Of a stretch of 64,000 nt of DNA, positions 33,346 to 62,889 are shown piece after piece (positions within the stretch are counted from its first letter, which is position 1; the number at the start of each line of letters is the position of its first letter). Under the pieces are notes generated by a model. That model saw only the letters and a program-made list of their open reading frames with translations. It was not told where the DNA came from and made no database searches. A program made the position numbers and the translations under genes. The stretch comes from Agelas oroides (Eukaryota > Porifera > Demospongiae > Agelasida > Agelasidae), in NCBI GenBank assembly GCA_949130485.1, contig OX422185.1, forward strand, positions 1-64,000, in the 5' to 3' direction.

Positions 33346-33683
33346 TAGCCTCGTTCCCAGGCCTTCCCCATTTTTACCTTCCGTTTGTGTTCACAATAAT
33401 ACACGGGAGTGGAAGACCAGTGTTTTTACCTTCCGTTTGTGTTCACAATAATACATGGGAGTGGAAGACCAGTGTTTTTACCTTCCGTTTGTGTTCACAA
33501 TAATACACGGGAGTGGAAGACCAGTGTTTTTACCTTCCGTTTGTGTTCACAATAATACAAGGGAGCGGAAGACCAGCTGGTCTTCCGCTCCCGTGTATTA
33601 TTGTGAATGCTAGTCTTCCGCTACCGTGTATTATTGTGAATGCAAACGGAAGGTAAAAACGGGGGAGGCTGGGAATGAGGCTA
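33346..33683. mobile_element. TAGCCTCG-family foldback element with internal tandem repeats
   Basis: It begins TAGCCTCGTTCCCAGGCC and ends with the near reverse complement GGCTGGGAATGAGGCTA. A perfect 9-bp duplication, AGGCTTATG, flanks it (33,337-33,345 and 33,684-33,692). The left part holds four 52-bp tandem units (starting near 33,371, 33,423, 33,475 and 33,527) containing TTTACCTTCCGTTTGTGTTC. The right arm carries the inverse of the unit, partly duplicated. The arms together could form a long hairpin. Confidence 0.93.
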
Positions 33684-34585
33684 AGGCTTATGCTAGTTTA
33701 AACGTCTGTGGAGCAATTTGACACACACTGTACCCCATATGAGAACATTGTCATGGAAACTGGGGGCAGAGAGGCTTTTGTGATAGGGAGGAGCAAGGTA
33801 AAATTAAAGAAGATGTAAATGATCTTCAGCACTAAACTGTCGGCATTATGAGATCAAGATTTTAAATGCAATTATGACATTCTTTGTGTAGTAAGCAACC
33901 ATTACATATGACAAGACATGTCCCTCAAAACATGAGACATTTGTGAGAGTATGGCAATGAGACTACTTTGGGAGTACACTTCAACAGATTGCACTGTGCA
34001 TGATTCAGTTTGCAAGAGCAGTTTTCTCTGAAAATAGTGTATGTACACTAGAGTTCAGTATTCTTGTTAAAAAGTTGCACATCTTCGGACACAATACAGA
34101 CTCTGTGATTTTTCTGGTGTTTTGTTTTGCTGCATGCCTTCCAGCAACTGTTTTGCATGACTTGCTGAGGGACAAGTTTTTAGTATCTTAAATAATGCAG
34201 TCAAGTGAAACCGTACCCCAAGATGCTCACACAAAATTTGTTCTTGTACTCAGATTGTAGTAAACATTTAGGTCATCACATGCAAACTAGAACTTACTAT
34301 AAAAAATCTGCACATGGCTCATGATCACTAGTATAGACTGGTGAAGCTAGACCTGAGCGTGAAAGACTAGGCTAGTAAGTCACACAGCATGTTACTGAGC
34401 TAGCTGTTGCACTCACAAAGGCATGAGAAAAGTACTGAAGCTCTTCAGGTCCGGAAATTATGCTGAATTTAGTTCACAGAGTTACTGTAAGTATAAAACT
34501 ACGACCCGTAAAACTATAGCAAGCTGTAAGTGAAAGTTTACCTCACAAGGGATTTTATACTGAGCTTCTTCCAATTAACATGTCT

Positions 34586-34712
34586 GGATCCAGTTCCATC
34601 TTCGATCCGCGCGCGCAATGCGCAAGGAATAAACATTACAAATTGTGATGTCACCACATGGAGTTGGGTGAACTTAGTGAACCCCGCCAAAGCACATGCT
34701 GCCGGTAGCTGA
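34586..34712 (-). repeat. Dispersed repeat, copy B
   Basis: Reverse-oriented copy of the repeat at 31,905-32,033, including GTTGGGTGAACTTAGTGAAC and GATCCAGTTCCAT. The two copies could be ends of one 2.8-kb inverted-repeat element or independent insertions. Confidence 0.85.
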
Positions 34713-34854
34713 TAATGTAATTAACACCTACAATTACCCAATTTACTGACTGTCGTATGTATCTTGCCCCAGTTTTCATAGGGAAAGTGTCCAGACCCTA
34801 TTTTTCGACGAGTCCGTAGGGCGCGTGTGAAAAATTCGGTCTGGGGACGAGAGT

Positions 34855-35508
34855 AGTCCTAGACCCCCTTGGACACATTATGCGGTCAGTCCTAGACCCC
34901 CTTGGACACATTATGTGGTCAGTCCTAGACCACCTTGAACACATTACGTGATTCATCCCTGACCCCCTTGAACACATTACGTGATTCATCCCTGACCCCC
35001 TTGAACACATTACGTGATTCATCCCTGACCCCCTTGGACACATTACGTGATTCATCCCTGACCCCCTTGAACACATTACGTGATTCATCCCTGACCCCCT
35101 TGAACACACTACGTGATTCATCCCTGACCCCCTTGAACACACTACGTGATTCATCCCTGACCACCTTGGACACACTACGTGATTCATCCCTGACCACCTT
35201 GGACACACTACGTGATTCATCCCTGACCCCCTTGGACACACTACGTGATTCATCCCTGACCCCCTTGGACACACTGCGTGATTCATCCCTGACCCCCTTA
35301 GACACACTACGTGATTCATCCCTGACCCCTTGGACACATTACGTGATTCATCCCTGACCCCTTGGACACATTACGTGATTCATCCCTGACCACCTTGAAC
35401 ACATTACGTGATTCATCCCTGACCCCCTTGGACACATTACGTGATTCATCCCTGACCCCCTTGAACACACTACGTGATTCATCCCTGACCCCGTTGGACA
35501 CATTATAC
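34855..35508. repeat. 33-bp minisatellite, about 20 copies
   Basis: The unit contains CATTACGTGATTCATCCCTG followed by ACCCCCTTGGACA. The first two or three copies are more diverged (TCCTAGACCCCCTTGGACAC). Because 33 is a multiple of three and the unit lacks stops in several frames, both strands show long open frames with an 11-residue repeat. No start context, flanking exon or recognisable domain supports a protein. Confidence 0.93.
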
Positions 35509-35542
35509 TTGATCTCATCAGAGGGTTTTCTCGCAATTGCTG

Positions 35543-35619
35543 TAGTCTCGCAAGCCAGACGTTTACCGTTCCGCAGCGCGATCCGATCGCGCTGCGGAAC
35601 AGAAATCCTTGCGAGACTA
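35543..35619. mobile_element. TAGTCTCG-family foldback element
   Basis: TAGTCTCGCAAGCCAGAC at the left pairs with CCTTGCGAGACTA at the right. The centre contains a perfect palindrome, CCGCAGCGCGATC followed by its complement. No clear target duplication was seen. Confidence 0.85.
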
Positions 35620-35639
35620 CAGCTACATGCCCATGCGGC

Positions 35640-36312
35640 TCCTCACCTTGGCAAGTATTGGCAGCACCTGTCGACCATAGATACTATGTTGTCTCAGTAC
35701 CCCCCGTGCATAGATACCACGGACGGAACATGGAATGCATGCAGCAAGTGGAGTAGGGTGCCCCGCTTCATTAGTGCGTGACCACGCCCCTTATTTGAGC
35801 TTCGACCCTTGCCCACCTGCATTGCCGAACGGCGGGTAATCTATGGGTGAACTTGCGAATGTACGTAAGTGTAGCATGTATATTACTAACTTTAGCCACT
35901 TTTAGCGTAGATGAGAGCAATGTAATGCGCCTGCGTGTATCAGTGGTATGCCCTACCTCCAATACCTGGGGCTTGATAAGGGGTAGGAGGGGAATTGACA
36001 TGTCCAAATGGAACAAGCCAGGTACAAACCTGCGTGCCATCCCCCTACGTATCTCTTACATATACCCATACCTCCCTGTCATGCACAGTGTATGACAGGT
36101 AGATACACAATGAGGTGTTACATTTGAGGGGGACAATCCCAACCTAGTACCAACCCCTCAGGAAAGATTCTGATGGCAAATCCCCCTGTTTCTGCAACAT
36201 CCGCCCCAGGTATGCAAGGCAGTCTCGTTCTGAGACCGCACTGTTCATGCCCGCTGGAAAAATGCACTTGGTGAAAAGTACTAGTCTGAGCACGAGCAAG
36301 GTGGGGCATACC
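35640..36312. other. Unassigned sequence
   Basis: No gene or element recognised. Short open frames on both strands have no supporting features. Confidence 0.5.
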
Positions 36313-36398
36313 TAGCCTCGTTCCCAGTCCTCCACCACAGCTATCGTCACTTGCAGCGCGTTATTCGTACTGCGACGATAGCTGTGGTGGAGGACTTA
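36313..36398. mobile_element. TAGCCTCG-family foldback element, right end trimmed
   Basis: It starts TAGCCTCGTTCCCAGTCCTC and folds on GTCCTCCACCACAGCTATCG. The right arm lacks the part matching GCCTCGTTCCCA. A perfect 9-bp duplication, GGGCATACC, flanks it (36,304-36,312 and 36,399-36,407). Confidence 0.92.
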
Positions 36399-36407
36399 GG
36401 GCATACC

Positions 36408-37049
36408 ATGGAAAGGTACATTACTCTTCATGGGAAACCTGTGAGGTAATCCTCGGATGCCTCCTCAAAACCATCCCAACTTCCCCACTGGCCTGGTCGG
36501 TCTGACTTCACTTGGCATGCCGACAGCTTGTGTTGTAGTTAGCAGAGGGCCTCTCAAGTTCACAATTTTGTATACTACTGTATACTAAACCTTAGTCTTT
36601 GGACACTCACCATTTAACTACTAGATTTTGTCCCCAGACCAAATTTTGTGTGAGTGACCTTCAACCTTATCAAAAATTAGTCTGGACACTTCAAAGCAGT
36701 CTGTTTTCTAAAGTGTGTCTCCAAGTGTTGTATTTGCCTGAAGATCCTCCGGGGTTGAAATGTTGATTATGCGCCCGCGAATATCTATGCATAATATACC
36801 TGCACAATGATCAGCCTGGTTCTTTGAGGTCCAAACTACTAAAATCTTTTTCTTTTTTTTTTTTACTCTCAGAACACTTCATCCTCAGTTGCATTGTACA
36901 CCACAGGCTATAGCTTAATGTCTCCCAATTTTGACTTTCCTTCATCACCCATGCACGCACACCATACATGCTATGGCACACTGCACACATACACATTCAC
37001 TGGCCACTGACAGTTACAAGCTGAAACTGTACTTCCTGTCAGGCGCTGT
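36408..37049. other. Unassigned sequence
   Basis: No gene or element recognised. A poly-T stretch occurs near 36,850. Confidence 0.5.
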
Positions 37050-37800
37050 TTCTTGGGGGTGTTTTGATTGTCCTTGTGGGTTTCAGGCCACACCTGTTAC
37101 CCTTGGCTAATCCCCCATCCCTGTCTGGCTAGAGAAAACATCTGGCTTGTCAGTTGTTGATACTTGTCTCAGCTGGACCCCTAAGTACATCAATGACTAC
37201 CTATGGCTTAAAATAATGCCTTATGTGTGACTGCCAGTCATCCACATTGACTATGTGTGTGACTTCCTTCTTTTCCCTCTCTCTTTTCTCCTCTAACCAA
37301 GACCACAAGGATTATACAGTATAAATAACTAGGGTCCCTCTCATGTCAGTAGTGGTTGTAGTCAATGCTGCCACCATTCTTCCTTCCCCCCTCATCTCAG
37401 TAATGCCTATCTACTCCTCTACCTACTTCAGTGCACCAAGGCCTGTGTGATGAAAATACTTGCTGTTAGGTAAGAGTTCTTTGATTGTCCTTGTGGTTTT
37501 CACTACATGTAGGCCACACCTGTTACCCATGCCTACAGAAAACATCTAGCCAGGCTTGTCAATTGTTCTTGCTTGTCTCAGCTGGTTACATAGTACATCA
37601 ATGACTACCTATGGTATAAGCCTTGTGTGTGACTGCCAGTTATCCACACTGACCATGTGTGTGACTTCTTTCTTCCTCTCTCTTATTTCTCCTCTAACTC
37701 TTCCCCCCCTCATCTCAGTAATGCCTATCTAACTCCTCTACCTACATCAGTGCACCAAGGCCTGTGTGATGTGGACTGTGACCACTCCTTTGCCTCTGTT
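37050..37800. repeat. Diverged tandem duplication of a few hundred bp
   Basis: Blocks in the same order occur twice: GATTGTCCTTGTGG and GGCCACACCTGTTACCC, then TCAATGACTACCTATGG, GTGTGACTGCCAGT, CTCATCTCAGTAATGCCTAT and TCAGTGCACCAAGGCCTGTG. Copy one is about 37,062-37,450 and copy two about 37,485-37,770. The second copy is shorter, so one has lost or gained sequence. A short open frame ending at about 37,854 crosses copy two, without a recognisable product. Confidence 0.85.
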
Positions 37801-37859
37801 TGCCCCCAGCAGGTGAGGGTTACTCCTCATGGAGAGTGTTTCTTGTGTGAGTGAGGACG

Positions 37860-39090
37860 GGAGACTGCCACATTTACTTTAAACCAATTAAAATATTATA
37901 AGTCAATTTTTCAATCTTATACCAAACCACCAAACTCTACTGTCATTGGTGGGTTGGTCAGGGAGAACTTCACAAGACCCAATCAGCAGTCTGTGTGTGT
38001 GTTTGGTGATCAAGGTTCAATTTACTGGGAGCTGCGGGGGACGCTCCTCCAACAATCCAGCTTTCCCAAAAAATTAAAAACTACCTAAACAATTTATAGT
38101 TCTAGATGTGATTTTACCTCTTCGATTGCATCATTCGGAGAACCTAAACCCTCAAATTTTTTGATGCCCCCGGACAAGCTTATACAGCTTGCCCCCCCAA
38201 ACTCCAAATCCTAGATAGAACCTAGTTATATCTGTGATGCATGCACAAGCAAAACTAGCTTTAAAGATACATTTTCATACCATAGTGGGCAAAAGTAACT
38301 GAGCTTCTAATTGTAACATGTATAGCCTGATATTCCATTCGATTGAAATGAAACCGATGAAAGCACATGCAGGACATGTTAGTCTGGTGCAACAAAACAC
38401 TAGTGGAGGCCTACTGTCAGAGTGCAGCGTCGACGACCTGGGGCGAAGACAACTGAAGTTGAAGCACACGTGGGAACTTAATTTTTATTTGTGCTTCTAC
38501 CAGCCATCAACAGCAGTCTGGCGGTACAAATTTAATATGGATGGTGGTTGTGGTCGCTTCAAGTCAAGGGCCATGCATAAACGCCACTCACAAATGCCAT
38601 GCAGAAATTTACCTCATCATTTCGGTGTAAAGCTTAATACATGCATGTGTAGCTACATTAGCTGCCCTGGCTGGAAAAATGGCTGGCATATGTGATACTT
38701 AGCTACCTCTGGTGAGGACCTAGCTACTTATGCGTTATCAAGCTTAGCTTAAACAGTAGACAGTGGCAAATCCTGCTGTGTGCCATAACAATGTAGTAGT
38801 AAATCAGCGGTTTGCTGCTTGCTCAGGCTGACCCCATGATGATGAATCATCTAACTAGTTATTGTTACTTTAGACTGCACCCAGGGAGGGCCATTCCTCT
38901 GAAGAAGCTGCACAAGAACTGTCCAAGGTATGTTGACAGTGTGTTTAGTAGTGGTACTTTCAAAGAAGCACTAAAACCCAGTCTTCCCAAAAAATCAGAC
39001 CAAAGCTGGGTTAGTCCAAGGTATCCCATGATACCCCTATATAGGCTTCCATGGCAACTGTGGGCTGTTTTCATAATATGGATTGGCTGA
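37860..39090. other. Unassigned sequence
   Basis: The longest open frame (38,318-38,695 plus, 125 codons) has no recognisable motif, codon pattern or splice context that I can support. No element ends found. Confidence 0.4.
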
Positions 39091-39352
39091 CCGCCAAGTC
39101 ACGGACTCGCGCGATCGCGGACTCGCACCGGAAATAATTTTACAGCTGGAATGCTTTGTTCTTTGCCGATACTGCACGTGCAACAGTTCTAATGAGTTGT
39201 AGAGTAGTGTAAACGGTTGCTTGACTTGTGGGAGACTTCCATAGTTTCCAAGAAGTCTTACTATGAAGCCGGTGTGAGTCCACAGGTACTGGAAGTAGTC
39301 CACGTATCAACGACAGAGTTAGCATGTGAGTTTGAGCAACGTTCTAGCTAGT

Positions 39353-39482
39353 CTAGGGTAGCCAGCGTAGCCAGCGTAGCCAGACTAGCCTCAAATCCAA
39401 GTTTTCCGTTCTAGATTTGTCTCGCAGTTATGGCGAGGAGTCCAGAACGGAAGGCTATCCACTGAGAGTCTGGCTACGCTGT
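39353..39482. mobile_element. Foldback element related to the TAGTCTCG/AGCCAGACT family
   Basis: GTAGCCAGCGTAGCCAGACT at the left pairs with AGAGTCTGGCTACGCT at the right. The inner TTTTCCGTTCTAGA pairs loosely with TCCAGAACGGAA. Confidence 0.7.
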
Positions 39483-40328
39483 TAGATTAATGTAGTTCTA
39501 GCCATTATACACACAGAGTTTGCGAAAATACATATAGCCGAGGGCTTTCCGCCAATAAACCGTTGTTCGATATCCAGGGAAGCACGTTTAAGCCTTGGGA
39601 GTGGGCTAACTGCAGTGAAATGCGCACTTACCTACTGGCTCATTGCACTGCTGCACAATCATTCCCATGCCTTTACAGTTCTGCCTGGTAACGACGCTTG
39701 TTTACAGCATAGTCGACGCCTCTCATGCAAGGCTAGCTTGGTTTTGTTAGCGCCTACAGAACTCGTACAGATGGCAGTAGCGTGCCCATCTCGTTTGATA
39801 ACTGTGTGTCTGCAAGGAACAAAGCATTCCAGCCGCAAAGCATTTCCGATCCGCCGTGAGTCCACAGTCACGTTTGAGTGCAGTTTGTTGTAGAGTAGAC
39901 CTAGCGTAGTACCGAGGCTGTCGGTGTGTGTGTGTGTGTGGGGGGGGGGGGGGGGAGCCGTATCAATATGTACTCTCTTTGTAAGTATACCACGTTGCTA
40001 ATGATGTGTAGACACAAGTGGAAGAAGGGCTGAGGAGCCCTGATTGGTTGTGCTGCACTCCAAATTATATAGAAGTTCAGGCCAGAATTAGAACAGCTTA
40101 GATAAACCTACAAGTAGCCTTACTGTCTTTTTATTCGTCCCTGATGACAGTGGCCTGAGCATAGATACTTGTTTGTTGCTTGACGCGGAGTGATGCGCTT
40201 GCCCTCAGCCTGCTGCTGCGCTTTTCGTATCCTTTTTTGGTCAGTGTACCCACATGATGCCTTCTACAAATCATTAGTGACTGGGTAGCTACTTCTGTGA
40301 GGTGGGGAAGGGGACATTGTTACCCTTA
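39483..40328. other. Unassigned sequence with one simple repeat
   Basis: GCAAGGAACAAAGCATTCCA at about 39,813 is nearly the inverse of GCTGGAATGCTTTGTTCTTT at about 39,146, a weak inverted pair. Apart from the TG/G simple repeat no gene or element is recognised. Confidence 0.45.
39925..39957. repeat. (TG)n-(G)n simple repeat
   Basis: About eight TG units followed by a run of G. Such runs are common sites of length error. Confidence 0.9.
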
Positions 40329-40560
40329 CAGTCGAACCTCCCATAACGGACCCTCCAAGAAGCGGACAACCTCTCTACAGCGGACAAACGCTGTGTTACG
40401 GATTGAAATTACTATAGTACTAATGCATAAATAACCTCCGAGAGGCGGACGCTTCTTGATTCCGGACAGCGGACAAGATTTGAACTCCCAACGTGACTTT
40501 TCAATACAAAGTTGCCTCTCAATAACGGACACCCAGGAAACCACACCTATAAAATTGTAG
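40329..40560. mobile_element. Fragment with CAGTCGAACCTC end (Tc1/mariner-pogo type)
   Basis: TACAGTCGAACCTCCCATAA followed by several GCGGACAACCTC / AACGGAC words is the usual look of a mariner/pogo-type end after a TA target. No matching right end was found nearby, so it is one-ended or decayed. A related intact short copy is at 40,874-40,959. Confidence 0.55.
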
Positions 40561-40959: not shown

Positions 40960-40961
40960 TA

Positions 40962-44094: not shown

Positions 44095-45950
44095 TAGTCT
44101 CGCGTAGCCAGACTCTCGCAGGGAGGGAGAGTCTGGTCAACTGCCCATATAAGACTTGTTCCAACACCCACCCCAACTGGGGTGGGCGATAAGTGCCTTC
44201 GCGGCCAGCTATATATAATAGCGATGTGTCAAGTAAACGAAGCCTCACTCACACTAGACAAGCTGCAATCATCGCGAGGCAATGTTAACTCTGTGGTGCG
44301 AGGAACGAGACTAAGTAGCTTGGTTAGGGTGGCGGTAAAACGGGAGTGGACGATGTTACTAATAATAGAATTTTCCACAAGTGGGGTGCGTTTTAATGGC
44401 ATAAATTGCATCACGCGCTTATGTAGCCCTGCGTGCCACGTTGGTTTCAACAGTCTGGCGGATGAGGTGAGTGTTGAACGTACCTGAAAGAATGGATATT
44501 CTTGAAACGATCGACGAGGCCATATTGTCATTTCGTCAGAAAGTGATGATGAGCAGGCCGCTCCAAGCAGATCTACGACCAAGGTTTTTACTCCTACCAA
44601 GTGTCCGCCTTCTTCCTCATCGGAGTCCAGGTTTGTCATTTTATGATGAATATGATATGAGACGTCCACTTATTCTCAAATGGCCTTTGTTTCAGTGGTG
44701 CATGATGACGGCGATATCCCATCTGACTCTCCCACTGATTGCGAGAAACGGGAAGTACGCTTGTACGTATTTTCTCCGTCTTTGTACGGTTATTCGTGTA
44801 GGTATGCTTTTTCCCCCTTGTCCTGGGAAAGGCAACTGATAGTGATGTCAGAGTTTCCAAAAGTATGTAAATATTCTTCTACACGGGCCATTTCTCCACA
44901 ATATCTTAATGTATTCACATCAAATTTGATATAGAGGTTCCTTAGAGGCTTGGGTATATTTCCTTGCACAGCTTTGTTAAAAATATCTGCCTCGATCAAA
45001 ACTACACACAATTTTTTGTCACATCTCGCTACTTTTCTGCAAATTGTTGAAGTATTAAGACATTTTGTGATGCTGCTCACAGTTACTTCAATATTCAACA
45101 AAGCACAACCAGTTCTGTATACTAGAGTAGTTGTCCAATGGGATGGTACAGGTTTTTGATTGGAAAATTGCTCCAACTTCCCCGGAAATGCAACTATTTA
45201 TGGCCACAAAATGCCGTTTTTTAAGCATTTATCAAGCCTAGTGCAAGGATTATACTAGATATCTAAAATCCACAACCTTCATTGGACTGAATAGGTACAG
45301 ACTATCCTTCACAGCGAGTTTCGTTGTGATCGGGCTTACAGCGGCTTCCGGAAAAGTAGTGACCGGAATATTGCGCTAAAATGACGTAGAAAAAATTTGG
45401 CAAACCAGTTACATTTCGAAGACCGTACCGCTTGCTGTATTCACCCAATCTCATTGATATGGGTACCGTTGGAATCGCCATTTTATGCTCTTTTCAAAAA
45501 TAAAGGTTGTTGTTGTGATAAACAAATTTTGATTTTCACCCCGACATCGCTACAACTGAGTGAATTTGTGTTTTTTGAGTTGGGATTTCTGTACGGTGTT
45601 ATGTTCGGCCGTCATTATACATACGCCTACGGAACGGAACAGTTTCATCACAATATTTCGCTGAACGGAGCCGGTGCACGACTGGCATGCAATCCAACCT
45701 CGTGCGTTGAATTACTTAGTTTCTGGGCGTGATACTTGTTTTTAATGGTAAGTAAAGGTTTATACACTAGTTGAAGTGTAAATGTAAGCGCTTACTAATC
45801 AGATTGTGTGCCGCCGAAATTCTGTGGAGGTACAGAAATGTTGTACTATATTCACCAGACCCCCCTTTCCTCTTGCAGGATTGAAGGGGGGGGGGGTCTG
45901 GGGACACGACTAACTCTCGCCAGGCAAGAGTCTGTCTACACGAGTCCAAG
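44095..45950. mobile_element. Possible long TAGTCTCG-type element (tentative)
   Basis: TTAGTCTCGCGTAGCCAGAC at 44,095 has an imperfect inverse near 45,920-45,948 (AGAGTCTGTCTACACGAGTC). If these are ends, the 1.86 kb between them is one element. It holds a minus-strand frame of 146 codons (44,669-44,229, with an acidic DSDEEE patch) and a plus-strand frame of 111 codons (45,397-45,732); I recognise neither. No target duplication was found. Two separate short foldbacks would explain the ends equally well. Confidence 0.3.
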
Positions 45951-47245: not shown

Positions 47246-49970
47246 TTTCTAATGTGATATCTGGGTACCCTGCAGAGCAGGTGGTACGGATTTTGATGGA
47301 CCCAAAGCTAGATCAAGACAAGTGTGTCACGTACAACCGATGGGTGTTACGAAGAATGCATATTTTATCATCGATGTAGATGATGTACACTCTGCAGATC
47401 TGAAAGCTGATGACTTGGGGTCTTGGAAGCCAAATGGAACAAGGGCAACCTACTTTCGGATTCTTCCTAGTGGTACTATGCGGATCTTGTCAGACAGACC
47501 AAAGGTGGTGACACGATCAACAAGCTACCTCCTGACTAGGCGATACTATGTGCACAGCACATATCACCTTTTTCAGCGCACAATCATTGATATTCAAGGT
47601 GAGGTTTCTTGTCTAATGCAACATTGATAAACATGGTGTTGTAGGAACTGTCTGCTCTAGTTTGTCACACTGACTTCATGTGCTACTACACCTTCTGTGT
47701 ATATGGAGAATATACTTAAGGGTGTGCACAGACAGGGTCTAAAGCATCAGACAAGTTTCAGTCCCTATCTGAACTGCGTTGTCTAGGTAACTGGTCCTCC
47801 CTGTGGCTTATCTACTGATGTACCTCAACATGCCTATTTGAAAGTGTTGAAGCAGTAGAAATTACGCAACAGTTGTGCATTTTGTAAATGGCTACTTTTA
47901 GTGCATTTTTGCAAAGATTGCCACTGGTCACACATCAATATAATTACTGTTGTTTTGTGCAAATTAGGTACCAGTTTTATCAGAACGAAATCAGCAGGCA
48001 AACCTGAATGAACGTCTTTCAGTTGGGAGTTGGTGGGATTAATTTTAGTGAGCACAGAATTTTGCTTGGTATTTCCACCAGTTTCCACACGGAGAGTATG
48101 TAACTACTATAGTCTTGCAAAAAAAGTGCCCATGGGTAGAGCATCTTACACACATGCAACCTTTAGAGAGTGCCTAGATCTTTGCTTGTGCTACATGAGG
48201 CAGTTTTTATTTGGTGAGACATTAAAATTAAAACTAGCACAAAAAGGTTTCCCATTTTGTATACCTATTTGGAATGGCATACTAATCCCATGAAGGCCAA
48301 AAAATGGACTTGTTTGACACACAAATTTCTCACCTATGTCTCAATATACGTTTAGACTGCATGCTAATTAAGGTTTCACCCACAAGTGCATTGTAGTTGA
48401 ATTGTACACTCAATTTTGCAGATCAGACGGGAAAGCGACACGTACAGCATGGGTTCAATACACGTTTGATGGCCCTGAAATTGGAAATTAAAATCAAACC
48501 ACATGGGAATTCCAAACAGGACAGACCATTTTTTCGAACATCAGCAACGACTAAAGAACGCATGAAGAAGGTGGCTTCTGAGCACCCTCCTAAGCAAGCC
48601 ATTGATATTCTAACCGAAGAGCAAGGTGGAGAACTCAAAGCCCATGGAGCACCACATGATCGCCATCAGCATCAGCAGGTAAAGGATACCAATCCTTTAT
48701 ATAGTGTCATGCAAAGTAGCACAAGGTATGTCACAGATTTTTGTTCAAGATGTCAAAGCGCTGCCCAACCAATGTGCATTCTGAGTGGCAGTTGGATGAC
48801 ATGGTTTGCTTCCTGACAAAACAATCACCGCTTTGGCGTACTTACAGCTGATACTACCTACAACCTTGGAGACTTTTATGTCACCCCACTGACATATCCC
48901 CACTTGATGCTGCAAGATGTAAAAACTGGAATATCACCGTTGATGCTTGGACCAGTTCTAGTCCACCAGAGGGTTGATTTCACAGCTTTCAACTACTTTG
49001 CAAGTACCCTTGTTGGATGCAGACGAGAACTCAGGAAGATCTTGTCGTTTGGAAGTGATGGGGACAAAGCACTAGTAGAAGCATTTACCCACAACTTTCC
49101 AAATGCTATTCAGCTGAGACATTTCATTCATTTCAAAGAAATGTGCAAGAGAAGCTGAAAGAGTATGGATTTGCAGCATCTGTCACCTCCAAGTTCATAG
49201 CTGATATTTTTGGAAAGCGTGCTGGCAATACTTTCTATGCTGGTCTCATTGACAGTGCCAGCCTCAGCGAATTTGATGAGCGTTTTGAATACCTCAAGTC
49301 AGTGTGGGATTTACGAGAGTCCACCTGTATGCAAACCTCTGAGCCACGCTTTTATAATTATTTTACCCAACGTGAAGAAGTTGTCCGAGCTCTGTCAGGA
49401 GGGACTGTAAATACTGGTGCAATTATGAACTTGACAACACCACCACAGCCTGTGTCAGTAAGTGTTGTGACAACCCAAAGCACCGTGGCGGCCAGTTTAG
49501 GGCCTCAGTGTGCTTATGCAATTCCAGTTACCTGCACAGCAGTGAACATATCCACACCACAAACCAACAATTTCGAAAGTGATGTGCACCCTCCTCCAGT
49601 GAGTAGTGGACCACCTCCGCTCATTCACACACCTCAAGCCACTGTCAGTCCATTTTACCTCAAACCTCTTAGTGGCAACATTAGGGTATGTCAAGGATGC
49701 AGAGGAAGTCTTTGGCTTTCTAATGGTTCGGTTCTGGCTCCACCATTTGACATTGTTGTTGCTCGTATGGAGAAACGATCTTTTCGTGATACTGATGGCA
49801 CTCTACGTACACCAATGTGCCCTTCTTTGGCTCATTACCATGCTTGTCTCACATGTATACGTGCTTTGCAGCCGAATTTTGTTGCTTCAACCCAGAGAGG
49901 TTTGGCTGATGTTAGCCAGCTCCTTACTCCTCAGCATCACCAGCATCTAAACCTTGAATTTGGCTTGTAA
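47130..49970 (+). pseudogene. Mutator-like (MULE) transposase remnant, many frameshifts
   Basis: A conceptual transposase in plus-strand order but several frames: PEFPLFSNVISGYPAEQVV (about 47,230), DVDDVHSADLKADDLGSW (47,375), EIKIKPHGNSKQDRPF (48,490), LYSVMQSS (48,700), ADTTYNLGDFYVTPLTYPHL (48,848-48,907), GPVLVHQRVDFTAFNYF, FGSDGDKALVEAF and RHFIHFK (to 49,137), then QEKLKEYGF onward in a shifted frame (49,146). The D of ADTTYN, the GPVLVHQR block and the D of SDGDKA are where MULE transposases place two catalytic acids. The expected segment after RFYNYF is lost. The C-terminus returns as GNIRVCQGCRGSLWLSNGS with SLAHYHACLTCIRA, a Cys/His-rich end. Frame breaks occur near 47,335, 48,840 and 49,135. 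The family is widespread in marine invertebrate genomes as unnamed proteins; the MULE assignment is by motif only. Element ends were not identified. Confidence 0.72.
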
Positions 49971-52442: not shown

Positions 52443-52704
52443 AAAGCTGGGGGTGTCTCTAATCGCTGGACTGGAATATGGAATGGAACGATGGAATGGA
52501 AAATGGAATGGAACAATGATACACAGTTATAGCTAACTCGTGTAACTGGCACTGCTCAGTCTAGGTTGAACTACATATATAGTGTATCTCTAGGGCTGTT
52601 ATCTCACCGCAGAAGCTTTATGAGCAAGTACGGCATTGCCCACCGTCATGCTTCTATATCCAAGTATGGTACCGTTGCTGGCTCATCACCAGATGCTTTG
52701 TTAT

Positions 52705-52757
52705 TGTAGTCTTGCACAGCCAGACAGACAAGGGTCTGGCTTTGCAAGACTATAGCA
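52705..52757. mobile_element. Small foldback, TAGTCTTGCA type
   Basis: TAGTCTTGCACAGCCAGAC and GTCTGGCTTTGCAAGACTA form a hairpin inside the larger foldback transposon. Confidence 0.8.
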
Positions 52758-52759
52758 GT

Positions 52760-52878
52760 ATAGTTATAGTCTTCGTGGACAAACTTGAATGCGTGTTTTT
52801 GTACTCTGTCTCATAGGCCAGAATTGGCCTGTTGCCTTGTGGCGTGACAATAAAATTTCATTCATTCATTCATTCATG
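52760..52878 (+). mobile_element. LINE 3' tail fragment
   Basis: The sequence ends GTGGCGTGACAATAAAATTT followed by four or five CATT units, the terminal style of L2/CR1-like elements. Only about 120 bp is present, with no coding frame. Confidence 0.65.
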
Positions 52879-53293
52879 TGATGGCAGAAATTAGCGCTCG
52901 ATCCTCAGTCTCTTTCCTTGTCTGGTATCATGATGTCATGGTCAGAACTCAGGGTCCCCGAAGACCAGCCACAGTACCATGCATAGGAGCCACACTTACT
53001 ACTGTCAAGGAATACTGCTACTAAGGTTGTGAGACCTAGGAGCGACCGAGGATCAAGTTGCACAGACAAAGACCGAAGCGAGAATGCTGGCAACATGCAT
53101 TGAACTTGCTCATATAGCCTCTGCGGTGAGATAAGAGCCCTAGACACATAGTAGCTAGCTCAACCTTGAAGAACAGCGCCAGTTACACTGTAACTACATA
53201 CATTCACCGTTCCATTCCATTTTCCATTCATCCGTTCCATTCCATAATAAATTTTATTATTCCATTCCAGCGATTAGAGACACCCAAAGCTGG

Positions 53294-53915: not shown

Positions 53916-54259
53916 GGCCATACCAAATTGATTTTATGTTTCACGGATTGCTTAGGTCAGAAACATGACCCGGTAGGCAGGCAAAAAAAAACAAAAATAA
54001 AAATGGCGAAACTTCTCATGAATAATTAGATACGCTCAGCCACACAAAACTGCTTGCCATCCTCCATCCTTGCCATGCTGTGAGTACTTAGCCTCGTTTC
54101 CAGGCCTTCGCGCGTTCGTCGCGTTCAGCGACGAACGCGAAGGCCTGAGAACGAGGCTAGTGAGTACTGGATTACGTGTACATATTAATTTTTTTTTCAA
54201 TTTTCAAAATAAAAAGACCCGGCCGGATCCGTGAAACATAAAATCAATTTGGCATGGCC
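53916..54259. mobile_element. 344-bp Harbinger-type MITE, TTA target duplication
   Basis: GGCCATACCAAATTGATTTT at the left continues to CACGGAT. The right end is its inverse with one mismatch. TTA flanks both sides (53,913-53,915 and 54,260-54,262); a 3-bp TWA target is characteristic of PIF/Harbinger. A TAGCCTCG element has inserted in its middle. Confidence 0.9.
54089..54159. mobile_element. TAGCCTCG-family foldback element nested in the Harbinger-type MITE
   Basis: 71 bp, TAGCCTCGTTTCCAGGCC to GGCCTGAGAACGAGGCTA, almost entirely palindromic through TTCGCGTTCGTCGC. A perfect 9-bp duplication, GTGAGTACT, flanks it (54,080-54,088 and 54,160-54,168). Confidence 0.95.
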
Positions 54260-54531: not shown

Positions 54532-54867
54532 TAGTCTCGCATAGCCACACCTCATTGCGCAAGTGAGGGAAGGAGTTTGATAACTTTCAACGAGCCGCTT
54601 GTTGCACAGGAATTTCATTTATCCAAATTACATAAGTGCAAATGCTGCACAATTATCTTGGGAAGACGGACAAAGCAGCTGCTCATGGTTTCACAGTTGC
54701 TTCACAGATTGTAATTTCCTTTGTGATATCAGCACTCATGTGACGGAAATTATACTGCACTGTGATTGGTCCCGCACTGTACAGAGAAGTGCAACAAACT
54801 GCTGTAAAAGAAGTTACCAGACCCTTTCCCTAGCTGTCTTGCTGAACGGGGTGTGCACGCGAGACTA
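54532..54867. mobile_element. TAGTCTCG-family element, 336 bp
   Basis: TAGTCTCGCATAGCCACACC at the left is inverted at the right as GGTGTGCACGCGAGACTA. Flanks ATCTAGACC and ATCCTGGACC are similar but not identical, so a decayed 9-bp duplication is possible. An 89-codon frame inside has no known product. Confidence 0.75.
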
Positions 54868-55020
54868 ATCCTGGACCGAAGAACAATCTTATGTCAGCAC
54901 GCCGGACTTCATCTAAGACTATAACAGCCTCCCAGGGTAAAAATTATGCCAGGTACAAAGGTCTAGGTATGCAGAAGGCGTGGCACGGCGCGTGCACGTT
55001 GACAGGGGATGTTCCGTCCT

Positions 55021-55584
55021 AGAGGAGGTTGGAAGCTAGTAATTAGTGATACGCGCAAGGTAGCAATTAGTGCTACGTGAGTGACGTAATCATACTGACT
55101 TCCATAGCGGCCCATAGTGAAAGGTCAACTAGCCTCGTTCCCAGGCCCCGCCCATCTTTCCGTCGCTAATTAGTATGGTAAACCGTACTAATAAGCGACG
55201 GAAAGCTGGGCAACCGTACTAATTAGCGACGGAAAGCTGGGCGGGGCCTGGGAACGAGGCTACTCACAAACAGCTTTCGTTTGTTTGGGACGAAACTCAC
55301 TCAGTGGATACTGCTAGGTGAGCTCTAGATCGACCGCTATAGGTCTTCCTTACGCGCGAAGCATTTGAGTGTTTCCTTGGGAATCCCCACGGAAAATTCT
55401 CCATGTCATAAAATGCCATAGAAGTCGATCTAGCTCACCTAGCAGTATCCACTGAGTGAGTATCGTCCCAAACAAACGAAAGCTGTTGGTGTAAATCGAG
55501 TTGACCTTTCACTATGAGCCTCTAAGGCAGTCAGTATGATTACGTCATTCGCGTAGCACTAATTACTAGCTTCCAACCTCCTCT
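55021..55584. mobile_element. Long foldback element (over 150-bp arms)
   Basis: The left arm AGAGGAGGTTGGAAGCTAGT, AATTAGTG, GACGTAATCATACTGACT, ATAGTGAAAGGTCAAC, AACAGCTTTCGTTTGTTTGG and TCACTCAGTGGATACTGCTA reappears inverted on the right (about 55,420-55,584). The left arm is split by a 133-bp TAGCCTCG element and carries a small duplication around ATTAGTG. No target duplication could be read; another element sits 16 bp beyond its right end. Confidence 0.88.
55130..55262. mobile_element. TAGCCTCG-family foldback element inside the long foldback
   Basis: It runs from TAGCCTCGTTCCCAGGCCCC to its inverse, GGGGCCTGGGAACGAGGCTA. The interior has GCGACGGAAAGCTGGGC twice. The intact opposite arm shows that this block is an insertion. 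No exact 9-bp duplication is visible here. Confidence 0.9.
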
Positions 55585-55599
55585 GGTTCCGTCCTATAG

Positions 55600-55734
55600 T
55601 AGCCTCGTTCCCATGCCCCGCCCAGCTTTCCGTCGCTTGCAGTACGGAAAAGCGCAGAAGCGGTCGAGGGCCTGGAATAATTCATCACGTGAGTGACGCG
55701 CGCGGGGAGAGCCTGGGATCCGGGAACGAGGCTA
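55600..55734. mobile_element. TAGCCTCG-family foldback element
   Basis: TAGCCTCGTTCCCATGCCCC at the left and CCGGGAACGAGGCTA at the right. A perfect 9-bp duplication, GTCCTATAG, flanks it (55,591-55,599 and 55,735-55,743). Confidence 0.95.
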
Positions 55735-55743
55735 GTCCTATAG

Positions 55744-56640: not shown

Positions 56641-56690
56641 AGTCTCATTCCCAGACTACCCTTTCACGGGTAGTCTGGGCATGAGACCAG
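56640..56690. mobile_element. Small foldback, TAGTCTCATTCCCAGACT type
   Basis: TAGTCTCATTCCCAGACTAC pairs with GTAGTCTGGGCATGAGACCA. It is a relative of the TAGYCTCG family, without a readable target duplication. Confidence 0.8.
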
Positions 56691-58494
56691 TCCTAAAATC
56701 TCCAGTTTTGTCGCTTGGATTTCTTTTCTTCCAACTTCTCTTTCATTGGCTGGAGGAGCAGTAGAGAGTGACACTCACAAACTTCAAATCAGACTCAGGG
56801 TCATGGGTGTTCTCGGGCTGACAGTTACCCTGAGAGTGGGAGAGAATTTGCAGCAATCTTGAATAAAGTTGCTAGCATAGCAAATTTGAACACAAAACTG
56901 CAGACACGTGCATGAAATCTTATGTACATCTAAAGGATTACACAAAATGACCATTTTTAGCAGGATTCTTGTTAGACATTTTAGCAGCACCATTTGGATG
57001 TGGCAAATTCTGAATACACCTCGTTTAGCATGTATTAATTTTAGCGTTTTTTGACAGGAACCTAATTAATTAGACATATCATTATTAATTGCATTAGCGA
57101 AAATGACGCTGATCGCTAAAATCGGTAAATTTAGTATGCGCAATTAAAAGTAACATTAAGGTAAGCACTGATCATCCCACAAGCTGTATATACCTATACA
57201 TGTAGATTTGAAGCCCACAATCTTCTAGGAAGCATGTCTGGTTCATTTCCATAGCAACTGGTCCACCTACTGATTATTGCCTATAGCACAAAGCTTGCAA
57301 TGTTCTCCGCCAGATCCTCCTACAGAAGCTCTGACCACATGCATACACACACAGGCAATATGCATGCAAAACCAGGCCTGTCATGCAGTAGATGGTCTTC
57401 GCTCAAAAGTGGTCCCCCCCCCCCCCAGACCAAACATCACAGCCATAACTAGTCCCCTCCCTGCCGCTGATGGTCCCATCCTTGGCATGGTGGTCAGTGA
57501 GTGTGTCAAGGCTGAGAAGTGGACCAGCTCTCCAGTCAACCTTAGGCTGGTTTTTCAAGGCGAGCTAAAACGATGGCATTTAATACATCCATGTACAATG
57601 GCCCCCAGTGTCCTTCAGCTACTGACACAGTACCCCCTCAGTAAGTAGTAGAGTGTGTACTATCTCTGAGCTACCGAAGGAGGATAACGAGTGGCACTGG
57701 TGGAGAAGGCACATTACTATCACATTGAAAAGAGGTAGCCAGCTAACTATACACAAAGAACAAGTGCAGCACTCAATAGAGAAACTGTGTGGCATCTCTT
57801 GACTATTATTTTAGGCCCTCTGCGATGGTTTTGTGACACGGAGAAATGTCACTTTTTGGTCTAAAGTAGGCGAAACGAGAGTAAGCAAACAGGGAATATC
57901 CCATTCTTACACATGCAGGGACAGGTGAGGATTCCACTCCCCATAGCTTACCTCCATTTCAAAATCGGCAAGCACTGAGCACATGGCCACTTTGCTCAGA
58001 GCACGGTTTCTCCTTTTCCTCCACACGAGGCATCCTCTTTCTTTCCTCACTTTGTTAATGGGTGCTCTCCCCTCTCCTCGCAGTCCAGTCGTTCTTGGTG
58101 CTATCTCTCCAACTACGCTCAACGGGGCTTTGTTGTCGTCCACAATGAACTTTGTCATTAAAAACAGCTCCATCTGAGTCTATGATGCTCTCTGCTTCCC
58201 TTCTGTTCCTGTCTGAAGTCGATCCCTGGTCTGCAGAACTCACTGGGACCGCCATTTCTGGTGACTGGCAGACAATCTGCGCATGCACAGTGCACAATAA
58301 ACGATGACATACAATGACATCATCTCGCACGCCGCCATGTCAGCTCAGAGGTTCGTCTCACAATGCAAATGAGAGAGGGTCCCCCTTGTGTATAATCCTA
58401 AATTGTTTTGTTAGGAGAACTGCGGTTTTCCTACAGGTCATGTACAGATATGCTAGGAGACTGTGGAAACGGCTAGACATGTGTCTCTAATGCT
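56691..58494. other. Unassigned sequence
   Basis: A run of C occurs at about 57,413-57,426. Two candidate open frames (57,277-57,648 plus; 58,173-57,907 minus, the latter ending near a GGAGGTAAGC donor-like site) may be exons but match no family I know. Confidence 0.4.
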
Positions 58495-60292
58495 TTATAG
58501 CTGCACTAGCACAAAAGTATAGTAGAACAAGTTTTTGATGCCGGCTGCAAGGTAGACAGTGTAGATGTTTTGCAGGGCATACGCATATGCAGCAGTACGC
58601 AGGTCAAGTCCAAGGTCAAACTCTCTCACTGCATTCATAATTTGCTAGAGGGAGAAAAGATTCAATTCATCCCCTTTTCCAGAGTCTATGATTAGCCCAT
58701 TAGGGTTTTACTGTATAATGCCTCCCAAGTCATGATGCAAATCATACCACTGCTCGAAACCAGCCCATATCTTAATCAGATGAGTAGGGACACTTACCTT
58801 CCTCACCAGTCACATAAAACACTGTTTTGGCTAATTTAGCACCCTGTATATCACTTTCCCTGGAAAAGCCATCCACAATGGTTTATCAAAACTGTCAAAT
58901 TCATTTGCAAACACAGAATGGCTTCCATCCCAGCAACAATGAATGTTAATTGGCTAGTGCCCTGAGGCTGAGTAGTCACCCCTCCCCCTCCAACTGACAA
59001 GAGTGATGATTGAGACTAGCTCACCTGGATCCTCATGGCAAATTCTGGTGTGGGTACAATGGGGATGGACCCCGGCTGGCTCCCCAAGAACTTGCTCTCC
59101 AAACTCTTCAGCATGCTTGCTGCAAAGAAAGGCGACCAATCCTCAAGCAGTGAAAAGATGGGCTAACACGAGGGAGTTGCTAGCAATTAACAACTTGCTG
59201 ACATACCCAGGAGGTGGAAGTTTGACTCTCTCTCGTACTTTCAAGTGAGTCTGCAGTAGCTGACATGGTTAAGATTCTTCAGCCACTCAAAGTACGACAT
59301 TGTCATACCGCCAGCATTCGCAAACATGTCCTGTAAAGAACCAGAGAAACTGGCACGCATGAGGAGAGAGAGGGAGAGATATCTATGTATGCACACTTAC
59401 TGGAATCACTAGTACTTTTCTGTCCAAGAGGATCTTCTCGGCTGCAATGGTTGTGGGACCGTTTGCACCCTCCACTATCACCTGCATATGTAACACAACC
59501 AGAGATTGCAACTCATCCTCCTCACCCCTCACTCCTCCCATCCGTCATCCTTCACACCTCTCACTCCTCACCACCCATGCACCCGCACTCACCTTTGCCT
59601 TCATATTCCTGGCAATGTCTGCGGTGATCATTCTCTCTCCTGCGTCAGGAACCAGGATGTCACACTCGGCTGTCAGCAGGTTTTCCTCAGTCGCTGTGGC
59701 TCCAGGGAAGCCCATAATGGTGCCGTTGGTCTGAGTGGAGTACAGCCTCCATAACATTAGCTCTGACACACACACACAGCACAACATATCAATCCTTCAC
59801 ACCAGCATGTATTCCACAAGCTCTTTTGGATCAATCCCCTCCTCTCTGTTCACAATGTTGCCATCTCTCTCTATCACACCTACCAGCTTGGCACCCTCGC
59901 GACAGAGATACCAACAAGTATGCATGCCTATTTTGCCAAACCCCTGAAGAGAGAGAGGAAGTGGTCACGAAAACTGCAGGAAATGTGACTGTTATGTCAA
60001 GGTGCTTTTGCAAATTGGCCTACCTACTGTGATCATAGGATCATAGGATCATATATAGCCTCCAAGAACTGTTGGAGTCCATAAGCATTGAAATTGTCTA
60101 TATACATTCACAGTGTCAGATGTTGCCCTCAGGGATGTTGGCAGACTATAAAGCTTTCTAATTTAGTAGACATTTCAATATTACTGTGGTTCACGTATAT
60201 ACTTGTACAGTGAAGGTTTTGCCTGGTGTCACGCTGATTGCTGAACAATATTCAGCCTCCAATAGGAGACTGCGAATACTGTAGAACACACC
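58495..60292 (-). pseudogene. GLUD: Glutamate dehydrogenase, C-terminal half, with in-frame TGA
   Basis: GLUD enzymes are mitochondrial, converting glutamate to 2-oxoglutarate with NAD(P). Eight exons align in order: 60,292-60,203 (GVFYSI...KTFTVQ), 59,943-59,803 (GFGKIG nucleotide-binding turn, GIDPKEL), 59,730-59,593 (AECDILVPDA), 59,481-59,401 (VEGANGPTT), 59,330-59,207 ([20 protein letters not shown]), 59,119-59,025 (IPIVPTPEF), 58,859-58,798 (ESDIQGAK) and 58,644-58,495 (DLGLDLRTAAY, then TAA). Introns are short with GT-AG borders. Missing is the entire N-terminal half, including the mitochondrial leader and the substrate-binding lysines and aspartate; only about 520 bp separate the first exon from the upstream YIPF gene. 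Codon 30 of exon five (59,243-59,241) is TGA where an aromatic residue (Phe or Trp) is expected, and the 62-nt seventh exon does not close in frame with its neighbours. It is either a 5'-truncated pseudogene or a damaged assembly. Confidence 0.88.
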
Positions 60293-62444
60293 CTGACGAG
60301 AGAGAGAGTGTCACTCATGAGATCAGTACAATGCCATGACTTGCTGACCCTACAGGATCAGCCTGGCTAATTCATAGCGTGCATATAGCATACAATAACC
60401 ACATATGCATGAAATCATTTAGACTATTGTGCTCAAAAATGTCCACAAAGCAAGAGGATACCAGCCAGAAGGATGTGCTACCCGAGCCACAGAAGGATGT
60501 GCTACACAAGCCACAGGTACACAGAAGTATACGCAGCATGCAATTAACCATACAGGCACGTCCAGAAGTGGTCTGACTACGATGAAGATGGCCAACAACC
60601 AGTCAGTAGTTTGGAAGTGGAACAATGTGACAATGCATGTTGTGCTGTACATTCATTTGTTTGTACATACAAGAAATTTGCTACTTAAACAAAGGTGTTG
60701 GTAACTTGGTATTCAGCTGAGTGTCCCACTGGTGAAAGTCTCACTGTGGGTGATGAATACCCTGCCAGTGAAGGTCTTGCAGTATGCACTGAATAGCTCG
60801 TACTATTGTGCTCAGAGACAGCAGGTGTGGGAAGGGTGGAGTCTTGGGGAGCCAGAGCGGAACTGAAGTATATAGTAGAACTGTACAAGACAAGGGTTAG
60901 GGCCACTGTAACTAGCAGTCAAGCTAGAGACCATCTCTTCAACACATAATCAGAGACAGGGATAGAGTTAGTATGAGACAGGGTGATCTCTACCTTGAAG
61001 CCCACAGCCAGCCCAGCATGCATCAGGAACACTGTCACCAGACAAGCAACAGCCAGCTGAGTTTGGTGTGGGGGCAGGGCAGGAGGGGGAGGGGAATGCA
61101 AACAGCTGGTCACGGACATGCTAATAAAATGTTTTGCCAAAATCAGATACTTTTTTGTTCTCAGATTTGAACGGTTTCCACACAGCAAGCACTAGCACAG
61201 CTCCTGTGAAAGAAATGTGTCACCATTAGCATGCAGGGGTACCTAGCTGCCGTTTTTAAGTTGTCTAGGCTCCTGGAAATGAGGGTCACGTACCTGAAAG
61301 GGCTGTTCCGACACCTAGCAAGGCCCAACGTAACATATCACTGTTGATCACCCATAGCATCTAAAGGGATGCATGTAATACCTTTTGGGTTAGGCTCCTC
61401 CCCCTCTCCCTCCCTTTCTCCACTAGCAATGTACTGTGATGGGGATGAAAATGCTGATGCTATAGCCATAGATGGAGAGTAGCTCCAGCAGGGAGTAGCG
61501 GTTCTGACTGCCCCTCCACCACAGTAGGCTAGACAGGACGACCGGCACCAGCCAGGTATAGACATACAGAGCACATCCCAGGACAATCACCTCATGAAAA
61601 TGAAATTCCCAAGAACTCTGGTCTCTGTGTGGAGAAGGTGCACACACACACATCTTGTCAGGAAATGTTTCTTACTCCCACTCATTCCAGTATGGACTAT
61701 CAAGATTGTGCATGTGTTGTGTACACAGAAGGCGGGCAGGTTGGCCTTGTAAAACCACGTTTTGTAAATTGAGTTACTGGTAGACTGGTGTACTAATCCC
61801 AGTGGACACATGGTTGCACCTTCCTTTGTGTGGTGTATGTATGCTACACATGCCAAGGAGAACACTCAAGCACATGTGACACTCACTCAAACACTTTGAC
61901 AATGTTTCCACTGATGGCAGTGGAGAAGATGAGGGTCATGCAGAGTCAGATTGGTCCATAGAGGTCAGGGTTCGGCTGGATCACTTCTGCAAGATTGTAC
62001 CTCAGTGGTACCATCCCAGCCAACAACCGCTGTGCCACCTGCACAATGAGAGGCTCGAGACACTAGTTGGCTGTTGGGCTAGTCAGGGGGAGACGTACCT
62101 GGGCAGTTGTGACATCAAAGAAGCCCTGGTAGTATTCCAAGGTGAGGAGAGAGAGCCATGAGCTGGTGGAACGAGGCTGAGCAGGCTGGAGAGAAAGAAG
62201 GCACACTGACAACCGTCTCACTCAACCGTCTCACTTGACAGTTCATGTGAAGAGCCACCTCATGTGCTCACCTTTTCCTCATGGCCATCTGCATAGAGAG
62301 ACAGCAATAGTACACACAGGTGATTGAGAGCATGGGGACTACTGGCCTACTCCTGATAAGCTCTGGAAGCTAGTGCCATACAAAATGAGATGTGTGACAT
62401 CACAAGCACAGGGCCAAGAGCTTTGTCTCCTCACATACACCCGG

Positions 62445-62570
62445 CATGAACCAAGCCAGCATGAACCAACCCGGCATGAACCAACCCGGCATGAACCAAG
62501 CCGGCATGGACCACCCACCATGAACCAAGCCAGCATGAACCAAGCCAGCATGGACCACCCACCATGAACC
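62445..62570. repeat. 15-bp tandem repeat in a YIPF intron
   Basis: About eight imperfect copies of CATGAACCAAGCCAG lie between the third and fourth exons of the YIPF gene. A nearby ACCAGGAGCAACACGCA is also present twice (about 62,566 and 62,614). Confidence 0.85.
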
Positions 62571-62825
62571 AGGAGCAACACGCATTGCAGAGGAGGGGTT
62601 GGGAGGAGACCAAACCAGGAGCAACACGCACAATCATGGATGAGGTTGCAAGACCAGTGTGCAAGATATGACACGTCAAATGTCCTAGCAACACATCTGC
62701 CGGAGAGGAATGTAACCTACCTTGAGCTTGATGTGGCTCAATCTGTCCCTCTCCAAAGATTCCAGGCTCACTGTGTAAGTCTTGGGAGGGAACCATTTAG
62801 TCTCATGACAAAGGTTATCGCAACA

Positions 62826-62889
62826 TAGTCTCGTGCCCCGCCCGTGCGCGCCTCCCGGCGTGAGAGGGTGGGGTCTGGGGACGAGACTA
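62826..62889. mobile_element. TAGTCTCG-family foldback element in a YIPF intron
   Basis: 64 bp, TAGTCTCGTGCCCCGCCC to GGGTCTGGGGACGAGACTA. A perfect 9-bp duplication, ATCGCAACA, flanks it (62,817-62,825 and 62,890-62,898). It lies between exons two and three and leaves the splice sites untouched. Confidence 0.95.

Follow-up and report, generated by a model that had tools for sequence, protein, structure and literature searches.

Foldback elements that produce target duplications of 8 to 10 bp are already well known. Among the closest described systems, judged from the portions of the reports available to us, are Muta1 and its non-autonomous derivatives, a Mutator-like element (MULE) of Aedes aegypti with a type 2 foldback structure (PMC5225508); Tm1, a Mutator/Foldback element of Meloidogyne (PMC3169594); Tetris/DAIBAM of Drosophila virilis (PMC4079207); and ATon-I and ATon-II, also of A. 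aegypti (PMC3422177). Here we describe the TAG elements of the sponge Agelas oroides, whose ends carry the tip sequence TAGYCTCG. They were recognized in the first 64 kb of contig OX422185.1 (C3; this stretch is hereafter called the window), which is part of a 259-Mb assembly of 141 contigs (GCA_949130485.1). TAG units are non-coding cut-and-paste transposons that are MULE-like by target length. We consider it probable that they are miniature inverted-repeat transposable elements (MITEs) moved in trans, most likely by a Mutator-type DDE transposase, and that their ends carry family-specific palindromes whose pairing has been kept.

Each of the known systems resembles the TAG elements only in part. 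Muta1 is similar in its duplications of 8 to 9 bp, its abundance of non-autonomous copies, its palindromic motif at the terminus, and its complex terminal inverted repeats (TIRs). However, the palindrome of Muta1 is one terminal motif of 10 bp with tandem repeats of 12 bp after it, whereas TAG ends form a longer stem-loop with family-specific stems, and Muta1 is a MULE, whereas no transposase was found for TAG elements among the loci described below. Tm1 likewise has composite TIRs, 8- to 10-bp duplications (45 of 53), and non-coding MITE-like copies, but its TIRs consist of 13- to 15-bp repeats, one known element encodes a Phantom-like transposase, and its histone hairpin is internal rather than terminal. 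Tetris/DAIBAM is a non-autonomous foldback with 8- to 10-bp duplications, no autonomous copy found, and internal tandem repeats that feed satellites; its ends are different, and the available part of its description does not mention a terminal stem-loop. The ATons are also short and non-autonomous, and in ATon-I both subterminal regions contain a putative stem-loop. However, no stem-loop is seen in ATon-II, and ATons insert between A and T, leaving no 9-bp duplication. We found no description of the TAG family, or of six of its end strings, in the open-access papers searched (a scope that leaves out subscription papers and repeat databases). Likewise, the available portions of the open-access reports compared here contain no end hairpins whose stems vary between families yet stay paired. 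The interest of the TAG family rests on this conserved end palindrome.

An earlier note on the window had claimed that five dispersed copies are flanked by exact, mutually different 9-bp repeats, and all five sets of repeats were indeed found exact. The largest copy (33346-33683, 338 bp; 33337..33692 including the duplication) has the 9-bp sequence AGGCTTATG on both sides and contains 52-bp internal repeats. The others, likewise without an assigned strand, are located at 36313-36398 (86 bp; 36304..36407 with duplication GGGCATACC), 54089-54159 (71 bp; 54080..54168, GTGAGTACT), 55600-55734 (135 bp; 55591..55743, GTCCTATAG), and 62826-62889 (64 bp; 62817..62898, ATCGCAACA), which agrees with the size range of 64-338 bp given previously. 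The statement that each copy ends with the inverse of its start holds for the four copies in which both termini are present (33346, 54089, 55600, and 62826). It fails for the 36313 copy, whose right end lacks CGAGGCTA and reads ...GGAGGACTTA; 11 nt that are present in the left terminus are missing from the right one. TAGYCTCG occurs 11 times in the forward direction in the window and its inverse occurs 7 times, and therefore several ends are left without a readable duplication, as had also been noted.

To extend the analysis of flanking repeats beyond these copies, every TAGYCTC[GA] site was paired with every inverse site located 30 to 9,500 bp downstream in 45 pieces of sequence (321 kb), which gave 93 pairs after the removal of 13 overlapping or duplicate loci. 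Pieces L001-L008 were chosen by motif, L009-L038 and L044-L057 are transposase neighborhoods, and only L039-L043 (the first 5 of 40 randomly drawn positions) are random. Because both the motif and transposase genes are thus overrepresented in the collection, element densities cannot be read from it. Exact flanking repeats of 9 bp were present in 14 pairs, with 10 bp in two pairs and 8 bp and 6 bp in one pair each, whereas the chance expectation at 9 bp, computed with flanks from different loci, is 0.03 for exact repeats and 0.06 when one mismatch is tolerated. With one mismatch allowed, 17 pairs have 9-bp repeats. MITEs are short units with TIRs and a target duplication, and here repeats of 8 to 10 bp flank 20 of the 93 pairs (17 exact, 3 with one mismatch). 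A previous count of 60 pairs from 37 pieces, with 12 loci removed, had given 12 pairs with 9-bp repeats and a single pair for each of the lengths 10, 8, 6, and 3 bp. In these pieces, tabulating the flanks of TAGYCTCG copies, a check suggested in the earlier note for the genome, reveals an excess of 9-bp repeats.

Three of the five random 10-kb loci hold a TAG unit between exact 9-bp repeats; the unit in one of these loci (L042) has TAGCCTGG as a variant left tip. We also conducted a scan that was blind to the motif, in which repeated k-mers were sought around ends matching at 11 or more of 14 bases in 17 loci of 10 kb and in window positions 27001-64000. At a repeat length of 9 bp, 11 of the 24 matches have TAG..TAG ends, compared to 1/36, 0/23, 1/10, and 0/15 at 7, 8, 10, and 11 bp, respectively. 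Furthermore, one 323-bp element occurs twice, each time between a different 9-bp repeat (L048 6675-6997 with GGGTCAAAG and L057 266-588 with GTGTACTGT), which shows that TAG units have transposed. It is virtually impossible that they are chance hairpins or satellite fragments. Some TAGYCTCG sites do belong to tandem satellites, such as one with a site every 32 bp (C1:524626-524978), but the excess of exact 9-bp repeats, which differ from site to site, led us to reject the chance-hairpin reading. Single-strand elements of the IS200/IS605-like and Helitron-like types make no target duplication, and the 9-bp duplications set the TAG units apart from these as well. The proposal that interiors differ and that the termini define the elements is also supported.

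The ends of TAG elements carry a hairpin that had not been noticed before and is new here. They tend to follow the pattern TAG-Y-CTCG-N2-5-CCAG-R-C-stem-loop-stem'-G-Y-CTGG, in which the inner stem is specific to each family. The motif GYCTSG appears three times, in the tip and on either side of the stem base, and Y is usually equal at all three places, which is the expectation for a single end-binding protein that reads each of them. Among 126 fetched TAGYCTC[GA] sites, 64 carry a CCAGRC-like motif at its proper position (Y-R combinations: C-G 35, T-A 27, C-A 2, T-G 0), and 34 sites have GYCTGG in addition (R-Y: G-C 17, A-T 16, G-T 1). A stem score of at least 10 was reached by 33 of 121 ends, compared to none of 363 shuffled sequences and 4 of 400 positions drawn at random from the genome. 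We also assembled a validated set of 13 elements of at least 262 bp with a duplication (26 ends; two of the elements are large nested units). Here, 21 of the 26 ends score at least 6 versus 35 of 192 interior windows, and 12 ends score at least 8 versus 4 of the interior windows. When eight ends, chosen rather than randomly drawn, were folded as single-stranded DNA, the main stem started at positions 10-14 in all eight, with z-scores of -1.02, -4.45, -0.80, -4.04, -3.05, -5.16, -4.68, and -1.32.

The inner stem provides a further measure of pairing. Among the first 81 inner pairs of 27 dereplicated stems, 60 are Watson-Crick pairs, whereas 20,000 permutations gave a mean of 36.2 and a maximum of 50. 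These 27 stems (31 before four were omitted) are not fully independent, and they were drawn from the fetched loci and from the first 42 listed matches to the strict end pattern described below, all of which lie at one end of C1. Because the inner stem stays paired although its sequence differs from family to family, it seems to be the palindromy itself that is kept. By eye, many loops also have a GGAGAAA-like stretch on their 3′ side that is common to families with different stems (for example, L035 407-486, L026 342-401, and L048 6928-6997).

Tip and hairpin are both abundant. The tip 8-mer TAGYCTCG occurs 62,789 times genome-wide (31,434 forward and 31,355 reverse), compared to 3,853 and 3,910 occurrences of the reversed pattern, although part of this excess comes from tandem satellites. 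A strict version of the end pattern has 11,676 matches (outer C in 6,112 and outer T in 5,564), and the reversed control has 0 for both. Since the gap is variable and single foldbacks can match on both strands, these are counts of sites and not of elements. Y, R, and Y agree in 10,847 strict matches (C-G-C 5,670; T-A-T 5,177), whereas the stem base is mispaired as A.C in 282 and as G.T in 321; by subtraction, 226 matches have a paired stem base with the other outer letter, if no place is counted twice. As in MITEs, there are many copies without coding capacity, as the 11,676 strict ends indicate, with coding checked in part of the copies only.

Several satellites contain TAG-end sequence. The 32-bp array in C1 mentioned above has the tip 8-mer at 12 places, and in C1:566175-567281 the tip recurs mostly at multiples of 15 bp. 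A large tandem array at C1:1248977-1428444 has a spacing of approximately 14-21 kb, and most of its units carry TAG hairpin ends 523 bp apart.

Several observations weigh against the hairpin as a general and maintained feature of the ends. No recognizable CCAGRC-like motif is present at 62 of the 126 fetched sites, some of which are chance 8-mers. Five of the 26 validated ends score below 6 (one each in L048, L057, and L026 2391, and both ends of 33346), GYCTGG is matched by regular expression at only 19 of the 26, and three of the eight folded ends have weak z-scores (-0.8 to -1.3). The strict pattern is absent from all five window copies with duplications. Its two window matches are a lone terminus on the forward strand (27087..27125), for which no partner was found, and the left end of a pair of TAG ends without a duplication (44095..44313, no strand assigned). 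Moreover, the matching letters at Y, R, and Y could be inherited from two old lineages. The pairing of the inner stems would not be so easily explained in this way.

It is also quite conceivable, although we lean slightly against it, that the end palindromes have no function and either stay paired through template switching at replication or repair (quasi-palindrome correction) or are remnants of an older composite element made of two foldbacks. Some elements have end hairpins that differ from each other at corresponding positions of the stem (L001 1882 versus 2143), as correction would give, and the tandem amplification within one hairpin of the 33346 copy indicates that such stretches are unstable. 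However, the stem-base motif and its near-constant distance from the tip are kept across families with different stems. Correction alone does not fix this motif and its distance from the tip, and the sequence that follows GYCTGG does not, by eye, look like a decayed second tip. A different proposal is that the ends are recognized partly by shape, such that a transposase or a partner binds the terminus as a hairpin or cruciform and the stem can drift as long as it is paired. We regard this as unlikely. Integron attC sites are a known case of sites read by structure.

Our preferred reading remains that of MITEs with kept end palindromes. TAG MITEs would be moved in trans by a MULE-type DDE transposase, whose staggered cuts would yield the 9-bp duplications. 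A typical terminus comprises the tip TAGYCTCG, a spacer of 2-5 nt, and a palindrome with the base CCAGRC...GYCTGG and a family-specific inner stem, and one end-binding protein would read the tip and both sides of the stem base. Palindromy may be kept either because selection acts on the recognition of the ends or because template switching corrects the stems.

The small copies add a point that goes beyond the earlier note, as at least some of them appear from sequence matches to be remnants of larger families. In the 62826-62889 copy, bases 1-35 (97%) and the last 27 bases, 38-64 (100%), match the two ends of the 323-bp element at L048 6675-6997, and therefore the deletion joins points inside both end palindromes. 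The 54089 copy matches the outer L053 unit over approximately 34 bp at each end (91%). Both ends of the 33346 copy match a 444-bp family represented in L036 (90-93% over approximately 70 bp), and its 52-bp internal repeats match bases 26-69 of L036, inside the end hairpin of that family. For the 55600 copy, the left 55 bp match a 394-bp L026 element at 93%, with the right end matching over 15 bp only, and the likeness of the 36313 copy to larger families is limited to the common 15-bp tip. Copies of approximately 260-830 bp usually have a palindrome at both ends, and a deletion from inside one palindrome to inside the other would leave a single foldback of 50-140 bp. An origin by internal deletion is seen in the 62826 and 54089 copies and is presumed for the remaining small copies. 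Foldback elements have long self-complementary arms, in many cases with internal repeats, and such a structure is evident both in the 33346 copy with its 52-bp repeats and in the single foldbacks of 50-135 bp.

The class of the mobilizing enzyme was deduced solely from the length of the duplications. MULEs make target duplications of 8-11 bp, according to the part of the source available (PMC6446971), and the exact repeats of 9 bp (14), 10 bp (2), and 8 bp (1) among the 93 pairs fall in this range. The MULE identity of the mobilizer is plausible. We examined MULE transposase sites (PF10551; at least 119 scored matches), of which 30 were viewed at approximately 3.2 kb (L009-L038) and 12 at 10 kb (L044-L055), with several overlapping. 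One more MULE, on C19, lies outside the 119; it was located by similarity to an open reading frame (ORF) of L055, and its two ends alone were fetched. Among the sites viewed and C19, five elements were delimited with both ends and a duplication: L044 3552-8603 and L045 3449-8259 (ends GGGATTCGCTTTTTTCAC, 10-bp duplication), L050 3829-7992 (ends GGTCGTTAC, 8-bp duplication), the inner MULE of L053 at 3156-7972 (ends GCGAATTTTTTTTTTGGGCG / GCGAATTTTT, 9-bp duplication ACGGCGCGG), and C19:3321077-3327459 (ends GCGAATTTTTATCTGACGCAC, 9-bp duplication). Inverted ends without a duplication are present at L051, and no element was delimited at L046, L047, L048, L049, L052, and L054. None of the five delimited MULEs has TAG ends or a TIR in common with TAG elements. 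The earlier comparison with Mutator/MULE thus holds with regard to the 9-bp length, but no MULE with TAG ends backs it among these five, and the lack of a TAG-ended transposase among the PF10551 sites viewed counts against our reading.

A longer copy with the same ends that encodes a transposase, which the earlier note had suggested seeking, was not accepted at any of these sites. Two TAG-ended units span a MULE gene (L053 2179-8105 with 9-bp repeats and L055 2623-9240 with 10-bp repeats), but both are best read as nested insertions because the inner MULE carries, or closely matches, a terminus of its own; L055 is the less certain. The L053 candidate was rejected because its MULE has its own ends GCGAATTTTTTTTTTGGGCG and duplication ACGGCGCGG, and because its relative L051 (94% over 3.6 kb and 97% over 0.6 kb) lacks TAG ends. 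Its ORF matches the MULE domain with E 4.9e-6 (27.3 bits, just below the cut-off of 27.6) and SWIM with E 0.0022, below the cut-off. TAG ends at 2800 and 5305 around the MULE of L046 were likewise rejected, as neither their flanks nor their inner TIR sequence match.

We consider it very unlikely that the 6,618-bp L055 unit is a true autonomous TAG element rather than a nest. Over 272 and 300 bp at its two outer ends it matches the 585-bp element at L026 342-926 at approximately 90%, both have 10-bp duplications (GGATTAGGCT and GGATATCTCA), an ORF with a MULE domain lies inside (E 3.7e-6, 27.7 bits), and no target duplication is present where the interior meets the ends. However, this MULE is flanked by decayed inverted GCGAATTTNTATCTGACGCAC, the terminus of the 58%-identical C19 relative, which is bounded by GCGAATTTNTATCTGACGCAC and has its own 9-bp duplication CTACCGGAT; moreover, the inserted part starts and ends with inverted CATTGCCAGAAAT. 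An ORF downstream of the L055 MULE has a SWIM-like cysteine pattern by eye only and no Pfam match, and a 524-amino-acid ORF beside the MULE ORF (L055 5752-7326) has no convincing Pfam family. A query with the TIR of L035 gave 1,036 first-look candidates; the best 40 of these yielded 41 matches, 40 of them at 94-100%, and no long TAG pair.

Merlin elements use an IS1595-type DDE transposase, and a mover of this or another non-MULE kind would offer an alternative. It is somewhat unlikely that TAG elements are mobilized by such an enzyme (Merlin-like or from an undescribed superfamily) that makes 8- to 10-bp duplications, with the link to MULEs reduced to a resemblance in length. The delimited MULEs start with G (GGGATTCGC, GGTCGTTAC, and GCGAATTTT) and, as noted above, share neither ends nor a TIR with TAG elements. 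On the other hand, MULEs are abundant in this genome and the delimited ones make duplications of 8-10 bp. Published foldbacks with such duplications are mostly assigned to Mutator, as far as the available part of one report indicates (PMC4079207), and MULE was the only family searched here.

The window holds other features. Further TAG ends without a duplication, none with an assigned strand, comprise a pair at 54532..54867, a 77-bp foldback at 35543..35619, and a foldback at 55130..55262 that lies within a CAGAGGAGG element (55020-55585). The latter element and L040 3799-4050 represent a second type with 9-bp duplications (GTTCCGTCC; GTATGGCGA) and ends (C/T)AGAGGAGGT(T/C)GG. The 33346 foldback sits within an element at 31940-34685 with ends GGGGTTCACTAAGTTCACCC and a 10-bp duplication GCCAAAGCAC, and an 835-bp element at 52451-53285 has ends GGGTGTCTCTAATCGCTGG and an 8-bp duplication AAAGCTGG. 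A decayed gene at 48800-49970 resembles a MULE transposase by eye; its 303-amino-acid ORF (49059-49967) has no Pfam match. The window begins with telomere-like CTAACC repeats (1-740), followed by approximately 39 copies of a 55-bp repeat (729-2861), a long 10-bp-based GGGGAATGCA minisatellite up to approximately 20 kb, and a 42-bp repeat array that reaches approximately 28.1 kb (28138).

The TAG family is an abundant MITE/foldback variant that is real and new, and the role of its hairpin is unproven. In this 259-Mb genome it counts as a large repeat, given its 62,789 tip 8-mers and 11,676 strict ends. Even if the pairing is a by-product, TAG elements illustrate two conversions: a deletion that runs between the end palindromes can reduce a larger MITE to a minimal foldback, and a segment of a hairpin can turn into tandem-repeat arms. 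If the ends are in fact read by shape, TAG elements would be eukaryotic cut-and-paste transposons with structure-read ends, like integron attC sites, and many families in one genome would have in common only a tip motif and a stem base. If the pairing is selected, a common tip combined with structure would provide a testable answer to how one eukaryotic DDE transposase can serve many families whose ends are very different.

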